Origin: Eriocheir sinensis
Lineage: Eukaryota > Arthropoda > Malacostraca > Decapoda > Varunidae
Reading direction: 5' to 3'
DNA length: 64,000 nucleotides
Assembly (NCBI RefSeq): GCF_024679095.1
Contig: NW_026110571.1
Coordinates: forward strand, 23,501-87,500
Made by a program: the position numbers and the translations under genes. Shown in pieces: positions 6,765 to 19,392 of this stretch (position 1 is its first letter; each line of letters begins with the position of its first letter). Under the pieces are notes generated by a model. That model saw only the letters and a list, made by a program, of their open reading frames with translations, was not told where the DNA came from and made no database searches.

Positions 6765-6869
6765 ATGAATAATGCTTAGGGCACCCCGGCGTACAGGTGC
6801 ATAACACGCATATTTGTGGTAGCTGTTGGGGGGACGGGGGAGCCGGGTGTGCAGGGGAGGTAAGTGAAT
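6765..6869 (-). mobile_element. LINE G: 3'-end fragment displaced by the DNA transposon
   Basis: On the minus strand this continues, in frame, the interrupted C-terminal part of the LINE whose body lies at 17193-19089. Joining the sequence that ends at about 17195 to the sequence starting at about 6867 restores a reading frame without a stop at the junction. The homology of this piece to LINE 3' ends is inferred from the join, not from a second copy in the window. Confidence 0.5.
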
Positions 6870-6955
6870 CAATGGCGCAAATCACTAAATCAGTTTGAGC
6901 TGCCAGATTCACCAGATAAAATAATTTTTCAGAGAAAATGGGGAGAACTTGATCT
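6870..6955. repeat. Left terminal inverted repeat (candidate)
   Basis: A 16-bp block at 6870-6885, TCACCAG at 6909-6915 and GGGGAGAA at 6940-6947 match the reverse complement of the right end in order; the first spacing is identical. Sequence between the blocks is poorly conserved, so the repeat is old or only patchily constrained. Confidence 0.6.
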
Positions 6956-7692
6956 CATTTTTCTATGTACATTTTGTTGTCATTAAACTGAAATATAGAA
7001 TTATTACAACATTCCCACACATTAATATATGACATAAAGACTAAAATAATGAAAATCATTGTAAAAACATATCCTGTCTCCTTGGACTGTCTGTTTTCCC
7101 GGGACAAATTATTATTTTATGTATTGAAGAGTTTAACTCAATGTTTGATTATTTTTTTCTTAATATACATTTTTATAAGATAATTTATTTACACAAAACC
7201 GACAAATACTTTTTTTTTTACCATTAATGGTATTTGATAACAAGGATGAGATTGTCCACCGTACCCACCAAAACAATAACAAATCGTACGCAAAGGCTTA
7301 TCCCACGCCTACTACTGGACTAGACTGGACGCGTTCTACTTGCTGTACCTTACCTGTATTGCTGCTCTTCACTTGCTGTTTCATTTTGCTGATATCAAAC
7401 CCCAGGTACGTAAACTTAACTTCCTCTTACTAGGCTGTTATCGTAGGTCCAGTGGCACTCATTAATAGTACCGTGAACTCTTCAGTAGGTCCCAATGTAA
7501 TCTCTATATATAAACTGTGGTCACATATCCTTATTTCTCTTTCATTCAACATCTTGCATGGGTCTTTGGAGACCAACAGTGGAGAACCTGCTCACAAGCC
7601 CTAATGTTACCTGTGTACTCTTCCAGGTTCCAATCCACGACCGAACTAGCCCCCTAAGGCACACCAGCTGACACTCAAGCAGTCCCGAGGTC

Positions 7693-10559
7693 ATGGAGGT
7701 CAGTGCTGACATCAGCAAATGGACAGTGCAGACGTTAAACACGTTTTTAAAGTCGAAAGGCATACCATGTTCTGGGTATGGCAAAAGCCAGTTGAAGGAC
7801 ATGGTACTGATGGCACTGCAGCAACCTCATTTAGTGGAAGATGTCCTGCCTCTGAAGGAAGATGATCACACAGAGGAGATCTATTAAATTATCTGGGACA
7901 CAAGTCTTGCTTCCAGATCCAAGGACTCTCACTGAGTGGCAGGAGGACTTGAGTACAATGCCCTATATTACTCAAGCCCATGTACTCATGTATCTGGTCT
8001 TAAAACAGGGATGGCCAGCAGAACGCATCCAAGCCTATGAAAAGGAATGTGGCTACCAGCTTTATCAGGAGAGACACATCCAGCATGTTCAAGTAAAAAA
8101 GCTGGATTATGATGTGTCGTGCATTAAAGGTACCTGTGTGCGCCAAACCAACCAGAATGAGACCCCTTACCAAGTTTGGATGTTTGCCTCTTCTAATGGT
8201 GACATCCATGCAGCTGGCTGCCAGTGTATAGGGTAAGTAGTAGTTTAGTATTTTTTCAATAATTTTTATAGTATCTTGATGCTTTGCCCTGTTCATTTAC
8301 CTATATTTTTTTTCATCGTCGTTATACATAACATGCACCGCTTTACCTCCCATTAATGGTTATCAGCCTAACCTATACATTTTTGTGATGCCCCAGAGTG
8401 GCAGATAAGCATGCCTACAGCCTTTCACTGTGTGGTAGCTCTTTAGCGAGATGCATAGAGTGCTGGCCTGGTAAGCCGGAGGTCGGGAATTCAAATCCCG
8501 GTTGAGTGAGAAAGTTATTTATCTCACAACGGATCAATTTCTCATATGTTTACGAGTTGGCCTGATGCAAGGAAGCATCAGGGTCATGGAAAAAAGACAG
8601 TATATTTCTGTTATCCTTGATCCTCCAATTTATTAGTTTATTAGAGAGGATAATAGCTTCTAGCTGCATGAAAAAGAATAATGTTTATTATCTAAACTTG
8701 ATTTTTTTATTTCATAATTGGTTGTTTGTGATTCATATTATTTAAAAAAAGCTGGCTAAGCTAACTTTGACTTGATTCTAGATACATTAGTAAAGACAAA
8801 TCTATTATTCTATTATAGAGATGATGGGGGATGCAAGCACGTCTTTGCATTCATCTTCGCCGTATCAGATTTTGTGCAGCGTTGTGGGGTGCAGCCGGGA
8901 AGTGCACAGCGTACCTGCACAGACGTGACTTGCACCTGGGACAAGCCTCGCAGGCAAAATAAGTGTAACTTTAACCTTGTCACCATTGCGAGCAGGTAGG
9001 TGCAATACATTTTGTAGAAAACAGTTTGACACCCAAGGACAATAATAACATGTCACCTAGGAGCTACACTCACCATGTCTTGCCTCCATGTCTACTCTTA
9101 TGCAGGTTTTCTTTTAATTTGTTTATACATTTAGCTGGATTTGGTTTCTATAATCCTACTCATACTTTACAAATCTTTAACAATCCTCCACTTCTAGCTT
9201 CTTTCTATTCTTTCCACTCTCCATAACATAAATCCCTTATTTTAGGGTTTATCTTTTTCCAGCTTTCTAAATTTTTCACCATAAAAATTGCCTTCTTCAT
9301 TCTTTGTTAAATGAAAATTTCTTAGAATACAAAGAAACAGGTAGATTGAAATGAGGACGGGAGTGTTTAATTTCCTGAGTTAGGTGTGTGGGTGGATGTG
9401 GCAGAGAACAAGAGTTAATGTGCTTCAACAAATGTGAGTGGTTTGGTGTTACTGAAGACAGGAATGTAGATGTAGTGCAGCAGATTTGTGGGTGGGTATA
9501 GTTGAGAACAGGAATGAATGTTTCTTTGAGGCAAGCAGGCTGCCTTTTGACTGCTGTTCACTCCATATATATTGTTTTCTAACATCTCTTACATTAATTT
9601 TACAGCACAGGTGCAGGGAACAGCAGATCCAGTACTCAAAAACCTTATAGTTCTGGTAGTTATAAGGCAATATCAGAGTTATATTCCCCTTATACTCCCG
9701 ACAAAGTTGCAGACGACATTGCAACCACTCTCCAGCATGTACCGGATGCAGCACTGTGGGGTATTGTTCCAGGAAGACCAGCCTCCTCTTTACCCTCTAT
9801 TACAGGATTAGCAAAATGTTTCTTTTCACAGGACAATCAAGGTGAAAGTTTCATCAATTTTTTAAAGAGTAAGTATACTAATACAGTTATTTCAGAAATT
9901 TTGAAAAAACCAAGCGACAACATTTGTGTCCCATATGGAAACAACAGAGAGTGGGGGCAATAACTGCAAGTGTGATACACAAAGCTGCCAGATATAAAAA
10001 GAATGATCCTGATAATTACATAGTAAAAGGAATTATGGGGGAGTCTTCCTTTATAGGGAATAGTGCCACTTCTTATGGGCTAAAGTATGAGGCACTTGCA
10101 AGAAAACTTTACGAGACTCAAATGCGTAAGAAGCATAATGGTTTCAAAGTAAAACGTTCAGGTCTTATCATCAGTAAAAATTGCCCCCTCATACGAGCCA
10201 GCCCAGATGGTATTGTTTCATGTAGGTGCTGTGGAACTGGGATTTTAGAAATTAAGTGCCCTTTTAAACTTCAATTTCAAACCATGACTGGAGAAGATAT
10301 TGCTAGGGATGGCTCTTACCATATAAAAATAGGAGAAAAGAATAAAGTTACATTGAAGGAAGAGTCTCAGTGGTATACTCAAATACAAACACAGCTAGGT
10401 GCCGGCAACTATTCCTGGTGTGACTTCATTATTTTCACAAAAGCAACACCACACCTAACCATTCAAAGAATTTGCTTTGATGAGGAGAGGTTTAATAGAG
10501 AGGTGCAAAAAAGTTTAATTTTTCATGAAAAATTTGTAATGCCAAAATTGCGGGGATGA
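7693..10559 (+). pseudogene. SAP-SWIM-YqaJ nuclease gene of the DNA transposon (frameshifted)
   Basis: Inferred coding exons are 7693-8232, 8819-8995 and 9606-10559, with GTAAGT and GTAGGT donors and polypyrimidine-AG acceptors. Residues 1-50 fit a SAP DNA-binding helix pair (LNTFLKSKGI..GYGKSQLKDM). A SWIM zinc finger is split by the first intron; splicing gives CQC-x6-CKH. The last exon carries the YqaJ/lambda-exonuclease PD-(D/E)xK fold: ITAS, YGLKYEALARKLYE, SPDGIV and LEIKCPF, then QWYTQIQTQL. All visible catalytic residues (E, D, ExK) are kept. Two frame breaks exist: one extra base near 7880 between the SAP part and PDPRTLTEWQ, and one near 9885-9893 in a T/A run just before the nuclease domain. 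The start ATG at 7693 has a purine at -3. An AATAAA at about 13499 may be its original poly(A) signal, now separated by LINE F. The role in transposition is inferred: a 5'-3' exonuclease or end-processing partner of the transposase. Confidence 0.85.
8432..8600 (+). mobile_element. tRNA-derived SINE in the first intron of the nuclease gene
   Basis: The head resembles a tRNA: an A-box-like TTTAGCGAGATGCATAGAGT, an anticodon-arm-like GCTGGC..GCCGG stem, and a T-arm CGGGA-ATTCAAA-TCCCG (7-nt loop). The acceptor stem is not closed. A non-tRNA body follows. This is more likely a SINE head or tRNA pseudogene than a functional tRNA. Confidence 0.6.
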
Positions 10560-10599
10560 AGAACTTATTTAGAGGGAACTGACAAGATACTGTTCCATG

Positions 10600-10790
<191 letters not shown>

Positions 10791-10918
10791 TTTATGGACT
10801 GTGGTGATACGAAAAATTGTTTTGTATGAGATTTGTATTTGTTCATGTTTAAGATTTCTTTGGGTACCTTACTTGCCCTTTGGGGGCAAAGAAGATTGCT
10901 GTCACACAAACAAACAAA

Positions 10919-10921
<3 letters not shown>

Positions 10922-10961
<40 letters not shown>
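10922..10961. repeat. (CA)n tract at the 5' edge of LINE F
   Basis: Twenty CA units preceded by (CAAA)n. A second (CA)n piece follows the 3' end of LINE F at about 13446-13460, suggesting the LINE inserted within one (CA)n tract. Confidence 0.9.
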
Positions 10962-13445
10962 GTAGTAAATTTCCCCACACACGGCACAAACACACTGGAT
11001 TTAATCCTCACTGACCTCACTTCCCACTACCTTCCCCCTAAGCCCCTCCCTCCCATGGGACGCAGCACACACCTGTCAGTTCTTTGGACACCTGCACCTA
11101 CCACATCCAACAAAACCCCGCCAGCCACCAAGACCTACAGGCCTGTTACGGACTCAGCCATCCGCGCGTTCGGCCAATGGATAACACGCCACCGCTGGGT
11201 TGAAGTCCTTACAGTGGATGACGTACACCAAAAATGGAGCAACTACACCAGCACAATTACCGCAGCTTACCACCACTTCTTCCCGCTAAAATCAAGACGA
11301 GTGCACCCTTCAGACACCCCGTGGATTACACCCAGAATAAAACGTCTCATTGAACAGAGAAATGACGCCTTCCACACCAACCCTACACTCTACAAGCCCC
11401 TCCGCAACAAAGTTATCCGGGAAATCAAACGAGCCAAGGCCACATACTACCCCCAAAAGATCCACAGCCTCAAGCAAGCTAACATTGGGAAATGGTTTTC
11501 AAAAATTAAGGCCTTGTGTGGCCTCAACAACAGCGCCCCCTCCATCCCGGGCGTATCTCACCTCCCGCCACCTGAAGCAGCCGAGGCCATCAATCTCCAC
11601 TTCTCGGCCATCTGTCAGTCCCTCCCCAGCCTGGACCTGACCTCACTCCCAGCTTACCTGCCCGCCCCATCACCACTCCCCACGGTTGAGGCCTATGAGG
11701 TCGCCAGGTCACTAAGCCAACTTAAAACAAAGCGGTCCACCACGCCCACTGATCTCCCCATCAAACTGTACCAGGAGTTTGCCCCCGAGCTGGCCACCCC
11801 CCTCGCCTCTATTTTTAACGCTTCCTTCCGTCAAAGCCAGTGTCCTGCTGACTGGAAAACAGCGTATGTCACTCCGATTCCCAAGACCACCCCTCAATCA
11901 CTGAGTGACTTGAGGCCGAGTTCTATCACCCCCCGTCCCAGCCTCCTGTGTGAAGCCTTCATTTTCAAGTGGACTTACACTCATCTTGCTCCCCTCATAG
12001 ACCCACAACAGTACGGCAATATCAAGTCAACCTCCACCACACACTGCCTAATTAATCTCCTGGACTTTGCCTACAGAAATCTTGAAAAACGCAAAACATC
12101 AGTTTCTCTCGCTTTTATTGATTTCCGAAAGGCTTTTGACCTAGTTCACCATACCACAGTCATCAACAAAGCAATAAACCTCGGGCTTCCACCTAACCTG
12201 GTCTCCTGGCTGGCTGATTTACTGCACCAGCGTAAACAGGTGGTGAGATTTCAGGAGTGGCCTCCCCTCCTCTACACCTTACTTGCGGGGTACCTCAGGG
12301 GTCCAAAATGGGCCCTTTGTGCTTCCTTATCCTAATTAATGACGCCCTGACCCACACACCCCACCGCTGGAAGTACGTGGACGACACCACAGTGGGAGTA
12401 ACAGTTGACAACAGCAACCCAGATTATTCCCACCTCCAGGAAACACTACACAACCTACACACATGGACAACACAAAACATGGTCACCATCAACGACACCA
12501 AAACTACGCTCCTACACATCAACACCTCCTCTGCCCCTGTTGCCCCCCCTGTGGTGTCCATCAACGACACTCCCCTCCGGGTAGTTACATCAGCAAAACT
12601 ACTTGGAGTCACCCTGGACAACAAGCTCACATGGAAGGAGCACGTCTCCCAGCTCACCAGATCTGCCACCTATAAACTGTACCTGCTGAGGAGACTCAAA
12701 ACGCTGGGGGCCCCTGAGTGTGCGCTGGCGAGCGTGTACTCCTCGTTCATCCTCCCCAAACTGACATACGCTTCCCCAGCGTGGTCTTCCTCCATCAACA
12801 TCACGCAGCGCCGCCAACTTGAACGCGTCCAGAAGCGAGCCTGCAAAATCATCCTGGGCCCTCACTACACCAGCTATCAGGACGCCCTCGACTCCCTCCA
12901 TCTCACCAGCCTACAACACCGTCACGAGACCCTACTACACCGGTTCGCAACCAAGCTTCTCAACCAGCCCAGACACAGACACATCCTCCCACCCGCAGTG
13001 AACCGCCCTCAGCACTCAGTGCGACACCACAACATTATTGCCCCGATACGGGCACGGACTGACCGCTATAAGAACAGCGCAGTGCCCGTGATGGTCAAAT
13101 ATATCAACAATGCAAATTAAGAGCAGCACAATTTGTATGTTTTGTAAATATTTTTCATTAGGACTTATTGTTGTTGTTATTATGATTATTATTATGATTA
13201 TTATTATTATTATTATGATTACTATTATTATTATCATTATTATTATTATGATTATTATTATTATCTTTACTATGATTATTGCTATTATTGTTATTTCTAT
13301 TTTCCTTTTTATTTTCGATCATACTACTTTGTTCATTTGTCTCATTCATTTCATTTAATCTTCCATTGATGTATATTTTCAGCTCTAGGGCTGCCTGGTA
13401 CTTCATGAAATAAACCGTTTATTATTATTATTATTATTATTATTA
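10962..13445 (+). mobile_element. LINE F: CR1/L2-group non-LTR retrotransposon nested in the DNA transposon
   Basis: 5'-truncated. It opens in the endonuclease C-terminus (TLDLILTD), then a linker and the RT: VTPIPK, LAFIDFRKAFDLVHH, GVPQGSKMGP, YVDDTTV and KLLGVTLD. A single frameshift near 12260-12300, just before GVPQG, splits the RT into two open frames (about 10960-12335 and 12257-13120). The catalytic aspartates (FIDF and YVDD) are preserved. The 3' end has a TTA-rich internal tract (13165-13270) and terminates in (ATT)n at 13420-13445. Both flanks are (CA)n. Base composition is C-rich compared with the host transposon, consistent with a separate origin. Confidence 0.88.
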
Positions 13446-14681
13446 CACACACACAAACACAGAGCATGTAACTTTATATGATGAATCTCAGATGATGTAA
13501 TAAAATATTTGGAAACAAAAGTAGTTTTATTCACACCTTCATTGACTTATTCATATCCGATAAACCTAATCCAAATTCATAAACAAAATAGTGTACCATA
13601 ACATTACATAATTATGTGAATTCAGAGCCCTTAAGTATATAATGATATTTGTAAATATAGACATGAACATTGACATTTGTGTCAACATTTAGTTGCACAG
13701 AGAGGGCATTAAATTGCAGAAAACAGCAACTATTACTGAAATTTGATGCAAAAGGGGCCAAAGCTTATTATCGAGCTGTCCTGATAAAATTTTGAAATTC
13801 TTCATTCTTTCAATAGCACGTTCAACATGCACCCTCAATGAAGCAACCTCCCTTGTTCTGATTCTTTCTTGTGCATTTAGTGCCCTTCCTGAACCATCCT
13901 CTTTCTTGCGAGTTAAGGTGGCATGTGCAGTTTTGCACCACGTTGCAGCAGTAGGTCTCCAATATTGAACCCTCTATCCACCATGACAGCATCTCCTGGT
14001 TCAATTTTGTCTATCAGTTCAACCTCTGCAATGTGCCTATCAGATGTGTTACCACCATATGGAGTTGACACAAATGTAATAATTCCTGTTGGTGTTATGC
14101 CAACAAGAACTTTGGCAGTGTTGTGATGCTTATACATGGAGTATGTCATTGCTTGAGCAGAGCAGTTTGCTGGTTTGTTGATATAAATCTCTGTGCAATC
14201 CAAAATTACCCTTGTATCTGCATACTTTACTGGATACCAATCAGGAAGGTTGTCCCTAACTTGCTGAGCTGAAGGCCACAATAGCCACGGTTGCAGTACC
14301 TCATACAATACATTTATCCAGGTATTAGTGATGCATGAAACTGAAGCTTGTGAGACTGCAAATAAGTCGCCTAAAACCAGCCGGAAAACCTTGACGGATG
14401 TACACAAGTGTAATTAAATACTCATCAAAAGTATCTAGTATTTTCTTACGGCCACGTGCCCCTTTCTTTAAATTTTCCTTTATGCTTTTTGGCCTTTTCC
14501 AGTAATTAATTGTTTTTACTCTCTTTTTAATGGTCTGATAAATAGAAATCAAAACACTTTTGTTAGGAAGACCTGTATAGCGCTGAACACTCTTGTCACT
14601 AGCAAGAATCCTTCCTCTGGTCCGGGCTCTCTGATCAGTAGGTGCTTCTGTTAGATCTGCCTCCTGAAAAGCATAAAAAGA

Positions 14682-14871
<190 letters not shown>

Positions 14872-15083
14872 ACTTTCAACAGTTTTCCTTAATTTACTCC
14901 AACTTCCTTTTGCCTCAGCGAAAGCGGACACATACCAAAAGAAGCGCAATGAAATTATCTATCTAATGGTGTATAGCGTCACCTTTCCGTTCACTCAAAA
15001 TTTTGAGATATAGGCCTTTGAAAAAATATAAGATTTTATACACGGCGGGGCAAGCCGCTATGACAAGATAAAACGCGCTGGCT

Positions 15084-15316
<233 letters not shown>

Positions 15317-15501
15317 CGGCTTCGCTCGTACATCGCCTTCTGAGGCGTTTTACTTGTTTATATATGTATAACTAACCCTTTCAACTTGTACTCCAACATC
15401 CTTGGGCTCAGCTGCTGAAGTAGTAGCAATGGCTGATGCTGAATAGGTGTGATCCTGTGGTTCCGGCACTACCTCTATCTGGAGAAACTGTTCAGCATCA
15501 A

Positions 15502-16205
15502 CTGTGGGAAAATGAAATATAAAGTTCAGATATATGTATCATTCAAAAGACATTTCTACACAATGTCACATATAGGAGCACACAGCCTGCTGCTAGCTCA
15601 GTGGCAGAGCAATTAAACTAAAACCCCTAACTTACGGCCTCTGCCCCCCTCGACTAGAGTAATTCTTACATGTTTCAGGAATGATTTGTGAATGTCATTT
15701 TATAGAAGGAAATATCTTAGAGTAATTAATACTTTCAACTTCTACAATCCTGTCAGCTACATGTTTCCAACTTATAAAATAGTAATAAACTTTTACAAGT
15801 TGAAACAGTAATGATTAACCTGAAATTCTAAAGTGAATGAGCTGTTTTAAAGTAAATAAACACTAATTTGGCTTCCTTGGCAATGCTTAAGTTTTTTTCC
15901 ATTACTCTAGTAAGTTTGCTATGCTTAGGTAAAGAAATGCAGGCAATTACTTCATTCATCAGTGTAGGTACAAGTGGTGAATGTTTTCAAGTCGGCTACA
16001 TGGCACCGATTTATAGAATAACACAATTTCCCTAGACAAAACTCACGTAATAAGTTATTTCTTACACGATTTCTACATTCTAGACCTTCTAAAAGGGATA
16101 ATAAACCTAATCTGATGTAAAGCAACCCACTTGTAAATTTGTGCCATAAATTTACCATAAAAGATGTTCAAATCAACACTAAAACTGCATGGTATAGTAA
16201 CATAC
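15502..16205 (-). other. Transposase intron 1
   Basis: Bounded by GTATGT (at 16205) and a pyrimidine-rich ..CCCACAG acceptor (at 15502), 704 bp long. No coding sequence or repeat is recognised inside. Confidence 0.65.
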
Positions 16206-17111
16206 CTTGAACTGATGCATTGTGAGCCCATGTCTCGACTTCAATATGGACATCAGTTTGTACTTCTTCGTCAGTTTCCTTTATGAAGTCAATGTTGACT
16301 GGCAAGGCAGGGGCAGTGTGAAGAGGGCAGTGACTGGGTTAGTGGTTCTTGATCGCCTCTGTCAGCCGCTGGTGTTCGTGCTCCAAGCCCACTGATGGCA
16401 CCAGCGTTGTTTTTCGGCCTCCATTGATTGTAGCCGAACAACTCTGGATCAGGATGCGATGGTGACGGCCCGTTGTTCCAGTCTATAAAGTGATTTGAGC
16501 ACAGTGCATGGTGTCGGGTGGCTTTCCATGTAGGTCCCCTCTTACATCTGGTCACCCACAAACGTCTTCGGGCAGCCTCTTTTTTCTTTGGAAAACGAGC
16601 CCAGCCCTTCACCTCAGGATCCTTCTTCTGCGAAGAGGATTTGCAGTCGGCAACAGCACATATGTAGACTGTCATGTTCGAGGACAGTAGCAGCAACAAG
16701 TAAATAAGCGCGCGGGATGTTTGTTTTGGTTCTGGCAGGAGGGTTCGTCAATTTCGATTTCGGCGTCAACTGAGCAGATCATTTCGGCTTCGGCCACACA
16801 TTTTCGTTTTTTTCGCAAAAAACACGTAACGGTTATGTGTTCCATACTTACTGTGCGAAGAATAATCTCTAGAAAGGCGATACAAATTATTTTTTTTGTA
16901 ATATTCGCTTTGGTTCACTCGTGAAAAATGATGTAGCTGCAACACCCCTTCGATCACTGTTTCGCCTCTAAAAAGATATTTACATTATGTACTTGAGTTG
17001 ACATCATAAATTATTATAGACAAATAACATTGTGTTTATATTAGTAAGAATATTGGTATTGAAAATTAATATGTATGGTAAATAAGATTTTTTTCAGGAT
17101 GCCACTTGGCT

Positions 17112-17192
17112 GAGCGAGACAAATTCTCCCCGCGTAATTAAGCGTGCTGGTGACTCATGACAACTATTGACTATTGGTGATTTGCGCCATTG
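17112..17192. repeat. Right terminal inverted repeat (candidate)
   Basis: GTGATTTGCGCCATTG at 17177-17192, CTGGTGA at 17147-17153 and TTCTCCCC at 17124-17131 are reverse complements of the left-end blocks in the expected order. The terminal bases read through from LINE G in frame for ten codons before a stop, which could mislead an annotator into calling them LINE coding sequence. Confidence 0.58.
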
Positions 17193-19089
17193 TAATTGAG
17201 AGTGTTGGTGTGTTGTGGTGACAAGTGAGTGTGTATTTGTTTTCTGAATGCGTCTATTGTGCCGTAGTCTAAAATCTGATGAGGGAGGCTGTTCCAGTCA
17301 CGTATGGTGCGTGGAAAGTATGGGTGCTTGTATGCGTCAGTGTTAGTGTGATATGTTTGGTATTTATGGATGTGTGTGTTACAACTTACGAGTACGTTGA
17401 CTGTTTGCCTTGTTTAATGTCACGTCGGTCAAGTAGCCTCGTAATATCGTGATATGTAGTAATGAGTTGCTATTCACATGAGCGTTTAGGTCGAAAGCCG
17501 TGTTGTGAGTCAATAAGGATGTTGTTTGCGTCAAGGTGACTCATTATGTGTTTGTGTATTGTGTTCGAAAATTTTACATGGAGTCGAAATTAGTGAGATG
17601 GGGCGATAATTGGCTGGGTCAGTCCGGTCACCTGTCTTGAATAAAGGATTAATGTTTGCCAAAAGCCAGTCAGAGGGTAATGAGCTGGATGATAAGAACT
17701 GGGTGAATATGGCCTGAAGGATAGGGGCAAAGGATTTAAGGATGAAGGCGGGAATGTTGTCGGGGCCAGTGGATTTGGTTGTGTCGAGTCCTTCCAGTAA
17801 TTTCTGTATTCCGTTAGTCGTGATGTCGAGAGGGGAATGGGGGGGAAGGGCCTGTGTGGCATGGCACCGATTGGGACTGTGTGTTGAGTATTTGTGCTTT
17901 GTGTTGTGGGCTTGTTACTAATGTGTTAGTGTTGTCTTTAAGTGATGTAATCGTGTTAGTGTCATGTTTGCGCGTCTTAAAGAACATGAAAAAAGTTTAT
18001 TTTGTTATTTCTTACGTTGTCTGCCAGGTAAGTTGCTATGTGTTTGCGTTCCGCTACTTTTATGTTTTTGGCAAATGTTTTTTGGTGGTTTTTGTAGGCG
18101 GTCCAATTATCTGTGCTGTTGTATGTCTGCGCGAGTCTTTGTTTCTTGCGATGTTGTCTGCGTAGATCCCTGGAAAACCAGGGGAGTGTGTACCTGCTAG
18201 AAACTGTTTTTTGTAGTATGTGTCTGTTCATTGAGGCGTGTATGGTGTGTTTCAGGTTGTTCCAGTTGGTGGAAGGAGGTCTTGTGTTTGGGTCTGTCGC
18301 AAAAAAGTCAGTGCTGAAGGCAGTTAGGTCTTGTTTGATCATGTCTAAGTCAGCCCTTGAAAAAAGGAAAATCTGTCTGGGTCTCTGTTTATGTGTAATC
18401 GGTCGGAGGTCAACGTCAACGATGAGTATGTCATGGTCACTAAGTCCTGGAACAACCTGAGTGTTTGTTATTTTAAGAATGTTGTCGGTGAGAAAAAGGT
18501 CAAGTGTGTGTGCTGTGGTCAAAGGGCCACCGTGGCCAGCGGGGCGTGTTACAGTATGTGTTCCTGTTGGCAGGAGTACTGTTTGTGGGAGTGAAAATGT
18601 AATTATGATGTCAACGAATGTGTCGTGTAGTTGGCGTCTGTTTGTGTGGGGAATAATGGGATTGGGGGCGTCAGCATCGGGAGGGTCAAATGGGGATATT
18701 GCAGTCCAGTCAATGTCAGGGAGGTTGAAATCACCCGTGATCCAGATGTGTTTGTCTGCCTGTATGCGTGAAAGTGAAATTTGAAGGTTGTGTAAATAGT
18801 CTGTATTAGTAGAAGGCGGTCTGTAAAAAGCAGCAATAAGAAGAGATTTACAGTTGAAGGTTTGTAACTGGACCCAGGTAATTTTGAAGGCTGTGTCAAG
18901 GTCAGGCCTATGCTTAACACAAAGACCCGGATTGGTGGCGATGATAACACCGCCACCTTTGCCGAGGTCTGTCGGGCGGTCTTTACGGAATACTGTCATG
19001 CTAAAAGGGAGAGGGAAAAACTCACTTTTGTCAACGTTCCTGGCAGCGTTACTTTGATTTACGAGTAAGCTCATTCTGTTACTATTCAA
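17193..19089 (-). mobile_element. LINE G: endonuclease plus deleted RT, interrupted by the DNA transposon
   Basis: The minus-strand frame 19089-17977 is an apurinic-endonuclease-like domain: GKGGGVII, AAFYRPPSTN, WITGDFNLPDIDW, TLDLFLTD and GLSDHDILIVDVDL. After a frameshift near 17980 the RT fingers follow (PANYRPISL, QHGFRPKRS), but the palm with the FADD box is absent: sequence jumps near 17390 to the C-terminal FPRTIRDWNSLP. Several further stops are present. The 5' end is truncated before the first endonuclease motifs. The 3' end is broken at 17193 by the transposon and appears to continue at 6765-6869. Confidence 0.85.
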
Positions 19090-19392
19090 GAACTGGCGGA
19101 AATTGTGACATTTATAGCAAGAGTGCGAGGAGGAATGGGTGGCTGTGAGGGGGAGAAGAGAGAGCTCCTAAGGACACGAAGAACGAGTAGCGAGCTCATC
19201 ACTCGTCTTTCTCAGATGCACCTTATGCAGTGATGCGCGATGGATCCTTAGCAGGTGCAGCAAAGAGAAGATCCAGCCATAAACATGTATTTTAATTACG
19301 GCACATGATGGACGCAGTATTATTATTTCATTGAGCGAGCGACTTAAAGCGAAACGAAGTGTGTGAACATGAGCATGTGCTGACCCAGAGTA

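Follow-up and report, generated by a model that had tools for sequence, protein, structure and literature searches.

The element and its ends

A gene for a THAP-DDE transposase lying convergent to a gene for a YqaJ-type nuclease raises the question of whether the two belong to one mobile element and, if so, what an exonuclease might do beside a DDE transposase. We met this arrangement in a 64,000-nucleotide stretch of the genome of the mitten crab Eriocheir sinensis (hereafter the window), where a sequence-only reading had proposed a two-gene DNA transposon at 6870..17192. The copies, ends and target sites described below bear out that proposal, and the locus is very probably a recently mobile DNA transposon of the ISL2EU group (PHIS superfamily), whose nuclease may process DNA ends around transposition.

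The transposon spans window positions 6874-17188, so that the limits first proposed were right to within 4 bases, and it is flanked by AT duplications on both sides (6872..6873, context A|AT, and 17189..17190, context AT|T). Its terminal inverted repeat, GGCGCAAATCAC, consists of 12 bases that are identical at the two ends (left, 6874..6885, plus strand; right, 17177..17188, minus strand). An exact-pattern search of the 1.77-Gb assembly with the 14-base end ATGGCGCAAATCAC gave 21 occurrences, 14 of which form seven inverted pairs spaced 7.5-10.3 kb apart (the window and six others), and the reversed control pattern gave none in the same assembly; together these results exclude chance as the origin of the element ends. 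The search, which covers exact ends only, returned no short internally deleted derivative.

Eight of the 11 copies with both ends seen (the window, L009-L014 and L021) lie in the context AAT-element-ATT, a count to be read with the design of the search, whose 14-base pattern included AT and so favoured AT-flanked copies, the outer A and T lying outside the pattern. L015, of which one end was seen, reads ATT. Two copies were found without the pattern: C567 has AAT at its sole surviving end, and C70, with both ends seen, is flanked by the dinucleotides TG and AA, with AT at neither end. Since L019 and L020, whose flanks are the same, have AA at one end and AT at the opposite one, and C70 is likewise unequally flanked, a clean duplication is not found in every copy. 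L021, C567 (L047) and C70 (L049) have in common a variant left end in which GAGCC replaces GGCGC, the left end beginning GA in L021 and C567 and GAGCC in C70; the copies that carry it are a possible subfamily.

The transposon is inserted within a minus-strand LINE-like repeat (6794-6873 and 17191-19167), which contains an endonuclease-type open reading frame at 17980-19167. When the window flanks are joined, they align without a break to a LINE-like repeat in L016 (306 bases, 90.9%), where the junction holds a single dinucleotide, AG and not AT; as a paralogue of the site without the element, this repeat speaks for a duplication of 2 bp. We rejected the reading of 6870-17192 as one unbroken element. 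A nested non-LTR retrotransposon, which had been overlooked when the interval was first read, lies at about 10961..13444 on the plus strand between the nuclease and transposase genes, in a CA repeat and with TTA repeats at its end. Its reverse transcriptase (RVT_1) scores 31.4 bits. None of the ten other copies contains it, and the length of the element without it is about 7.5 kb.

The two genes

The transposase gene lies on the minus strand in three exons. The first (16206..16675) encodes the THAP domain, which scores 37.5 bits in the window (Pfam cut-off 23.9), and its frame is broken downstream of that domain in the window copy. A middle exon (15377..15501) is predicted from splice signals and frame, and the last (13689..14663) encodes an HTH_Tnp_4-like segment followed by the DDE_Tnp_4 core. 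In the window copy this last exon is interrupted by frame breaks, and two pieces of the one exon region match DDE_Tnp_4 at 87.6 and 44.1 bits (cut-off 24.8); HTH_Tnp_4 scores 23.1 bits, just below its cut-off of 27. In L011 the exon is open for 325 residues and the core reads D73D51E.

The search with the transposase gave 815 protein matches, and relatives were taken from the best 120 of the 815. The best match, the Eriocheir sinensis protein P0018, is 100% identical over 74% of the query and has DDE, HTH and THAP, all three as precomputed Pfam domains. With the transposase exon as query, phmmer found no match in the PDB. In a 29-row tree of decapod and other animal relatives, which has long branches and contains no labelled Repbase references, the transposase falls with Portunus, Scylla, Petrolisthes and two other YqaJ-linked crab lineages in a clade supported at 100/100, and metagenome proteins are interspersed in this decapod clade. 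Two proteins labelled Aquifex sp. MAG, P0020 and P0040, are 68-69% identical to the crab transposase, P0020 being placed inside the decapod clade; the labels probably reflect animal DNA in a bacterial bin.

The nuclease gene lies on the plus strand, with predicted exon limits, those of exon 1 resting on splice signals and frame. Exon 1 (7693..8232) encodes a SAP-like domain, a linker and the first half (CxC) of a SWIM-type motif, exon 2 (8819..8995) the second half (CxH), and exon 3 (9606..10559) a YqaJ or lambda-exonuclease-type nuclease that keeps the conserved D...ExK (HMM match at about 9936-10400). The motif CxCx6CxH is thus present and interrupted by an intron, as the sequence-only reading had it. 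YqaJ scores 65.4 bits on the single window exon and 63.2 bits on the spliced nuclease of the sister copy L012 (Pfam cut-off 22). On the same spliced product SAP scores 19.7 bits, below its cut-off of 23.9, and SWIM was not reported by Pfam, so the SAP and SWIM labels are putative, sub-threshold assignments. The earlier claim of a full set of recognizable domains therefore holds for YqaJ, DDE_Tnp_4 and THAP, which exceed the Pfam cut-offs, and not for HTH_Tnp_4, SAP and SWIM, which fall below them; the HMM support for YqaJ and DDE_Tnp_4 on which that reading had been staked beforehand is present. In the window copy exon 1 is broken in frame and exon 3 has one frame break, upstream of the YqaJ match. 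Exon 1 is open in L010, L011, L012 and L015, and in L012 the nuclease reading frame is intact. No gene for an annealing protein was recognized within the element.

Among 4564 candidate proteins the nuclease has 16 matches, the best being proteins from the mud crab Scylla (42% over 98%) and the acorn worm Ptychodera (33% over 99%). The residues D441, E455 and K457 (L012 numbering) are the same in all 16 aligned YqaJ proteins. The nuclease profile matches the solved exonuclease 3syy at 1.3E-21 and lambda exonuclease (1avq) at 4E-10; the match to ZSWIM8, at 0.21, is insignificant. By profile, the core fold is shared with the lambda exonuclease/YqaJ nucleases (1avq, 3syy, the mimivirus-type R354 5yeu and ORF 37 3fhd), as is the ASPDG...ExK active site. 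Unlike these enzymes, the crab nuclease domain is fused behind SAP/SWIM-like segments and is carried by an animal transposon.

Copies in the genome

Six other end pairs and seven single end sites were examined, and the element was found in ten of the 13 fetched stretches and was absent from L016, L017 and L018. The Eriocheir sinensis genome holds ten further full or near-full copies, all with both genes, and with the window included the two genes occur together in 11 of 11 copies; the outcome that would have refuted the sequence-only reading, other copies in which the genes are never linked, was thus not observed. L015 is without its first 0.7 kb, and the transposase exon of L021 is rearranged. 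L019 and L020, both on C69 and 45 kb apart, share flanks, which points to a local duplication or an assembly duplicate. Two extra members, on C567 and C70, were met via the Pfam searches and entered the comparison in partial sequence.

Over 11 segments the copies differ pairwise by 0.23-1.25% in substitutions (mean 0.71%), which argues for recent movement. Scored against the majority sequence, the exons of the 11 copies show 125 substitutions, 99 deletion events and 2 insertion events, and the non-coding segments 152 substitutions, 76 deletion events and 13 insertion events, so that over all segments there are 175 deletions to 15 insertions. The exon deletions are of 1-3 bases and nearly as common as substitutions, insertions being rare, and several deletions recur at identical positions across copies. 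In this assembly both genes of the window copy have frame breaks, and among the copies examined none has both genes free of them. Given the excess of deletions over insertions, some of the frame breaks may be assembly error; the recurrent deletions would fit either long-read assembly errors in repeats this young or deletions inherited in common.

A convergent DDE_Tnp_4 gene lies within about 6 kb of 13 of the 20 YqaJ matches in the genome, namely those in the window, on C1694, C44, C626, C8, C567, C1906, C70, C1478, C69 and C30, and at two places on C64. The two C64 pairs may be one duplicated locus because their spacing is nearly equal (5355 and 5359 bases). Around the other seven matches (one each on C10 and C7, and five on C23) the sequence covered shows no DDE gene; it took in about 4.5 kb downstream at C10, at C7 and at one of the C23 places, and 1.5 kb to either side at the remaining four. 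These DDE-less matches (L031, L032, L034, L035 and L037-L039) may be nucleases that stand alone or have been domesticated, or they may belong to other elements. The frames on C10 and C7 are open for about 190-210 residues.

Group membership

Could the two genes be neighbours by chance, a DDE element having landed beside a host or viral YqaJ gene? The seven YqaJ matches without a DDE gene in the sequence covered speak for it, but the copies contradict it: low-divergence copies at different sites hold both genes within the same inverted repeats, the convergent pair recurs in diverged lineages (C1906, C1478 and the two places on C64), and the same pair is reported in published ISL2EU families (PMC4482050). 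We have rejected chance neighbourhood and give it practically no credence. A PIF/Harbinger or Spy element in place of ISL2EU is very unlikely. DDE_Tnp_4-like transposases are common to all of these groups, and the transposase tree carries no labelled Repbase reference that would separate them; PIF/Harbinger also resembles the crab element in having a related DDE transposase and a second open reading frame for a DNA-binding protein (PMC9179366). However, the PIF/Harbinger partner is a Myb/SANT protein and its duplication is a 3-bp TWA (PMC9179366), and Spy has a single open reading frame, an AAATTT target and no duplication, whereas the crab element has a YqaJ partner and duplicates AT. On the duplication and the partner protein, both identities were rejected.

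According to the description of Han et al. 2015 (PMC4482050), ISL2EU elements of the PHIS superfamily have one open reading frame with THAP, HTH and DDE domains and another with YqaJ, insert at A|AT|T, have terminal inverted repeats of 6-259 bp that usually begin with GG, and reside in animals. Every one of these features that could be tested is found in this decapod crustacean, as the choice of ISL2EU for the nearest group had anticipated: a DDE, HTH and THAP reading frame (the HTH just below cut-off on the window exon), a second frame with a YqaJ exonuclease domain in 11 of 11 copies, a duplicated AT within A|AT|T, outer A and T included, in 8 of the 11 copies with both ends seen, and a repeat that starts with GG and has 12 identical bases. 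The assignment is by such structural features. The crab element differs in its size, about 7.5 kb without the LINE versus an average of about 4.8 kb for autonomous ISL2EU elements in the same source, in its SAP- and SWIM-like segments, neither term occurring in the accessible text of PMC4482050, and in the variant left end of some copies.

Among crustaceans, ISL2EU has already been listed for Daphnia magna, in whose mutation-accumulation lines a single gain and a single loss were recorded. A domain set outside the known range is not supported, the pairing of THAP-HTH-DDE and YqaJ reading frames being that of published ISL2EU and SWIM-YqaJ being found in distant homologues. As a discovery the element is modest: ISL2EU, its pair of genes and its target site had all been described before.

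Possible role of the nuclease

Han et al. state that the function of the additional reading frames, the YqaJ frame included, is unknown (PMC4482050). An exonuclease beside a DDE transposase was first taken to suggest a mechanism other than simple cut-and-paste, and this is possible; the short inverted repeats, the 2-bp duplications and the empty site look like ordinary DDE integration. We envision that the THAP domain would bind the element ends, and that the DDE transposase would excise the element and insert it at A|AT|T by cuts staggered by 2 bases, in a cut-and-paste manner. The second protein would be a DNA-binding (SAP/SWIM-like), metal-dependent 5'-3' exonuclease of lambda-exonuclease fold, its active site presumably kept by selection. 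The role that we prefer for it is the processing of DNA ends around transposition; in the simplest form, the nuclease would resect the broken donor site and homologous repair would restore a copy there. Spy, given as the sister clade, transposes when its transposase is supplied, so a YqaJ partner need not be a requirement of the PHIS chemistry as such.

A serious rival is that the YqaJ protein acts mainly as the DNA-binding and nuclear-import partner of the transposase, in the manner of the Harbinger Myb-like protein, with any nuclease activity secondary; we consider this a real possibility, if a somewhat doubtful one. Other PHIS groups place a Myb/SANT DNA-binding protein beside the DDE frame, in the same position (PMC4482050), the Myb-like protein of Harbinger reportedly binds both the transposase and the terminal inverted repeats (PMC9179366), and the crab partner has SAP- and SWIM-like segments of its own. 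A pure binding protein, however, would have no need of the invariant nuclease residues. Binding and end resection are compatible and can both be true. A stronger form of the end-processing role, in which the SAP-SWIM-YqaJ protein would be a dedicated end-resection enzyme that makes a cut-and-paste element net-copying through homologous repair at the donor site, is in our view unlikely. If true, the element would come equipped with a eukaryotic counterpart of the phage Red exonuclease and would constitute a natural bias on repair-pathway choice. Because its copies have diverged little and the nuclease frame is intact in at least one of them (L012), the family offers a workable subject for the function of the YqaJ reading frame.

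Distribution of the nuclease architecture

The partner protein gains a fuller layout here (SAP-like, SWIM-type and YqaJ), one that recurs in distant animals. A CxCx6CxH-type motif is present in 9 of the 16 rows of the homologue alignment, the mud-crab, acorn-worm and abalone proteins among them, and the 7 rows without it are mostly partial. Pfam gives weak matches below cut-off to SAP in 2 of the 16 members (the window element and the mud crab only) and to SWIM likewise in 2 of the 16. As the SWIM-YqaJ layout is common to distant homologues, the architecture is not peculiar to the mitten-crab element. Our literature search found no paper describing a SAP/SWIM-YqaJ architecture; the exact-phrase search for SWIM with YqaJ returned nothing, and the matches to YqaJ, swim and transposon were unrelated by title. 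Two of the YqaJ homologues, P0012 and P0015, have a C-terminal PHD finger, a different chromatin-reader addition to the same nuclease.
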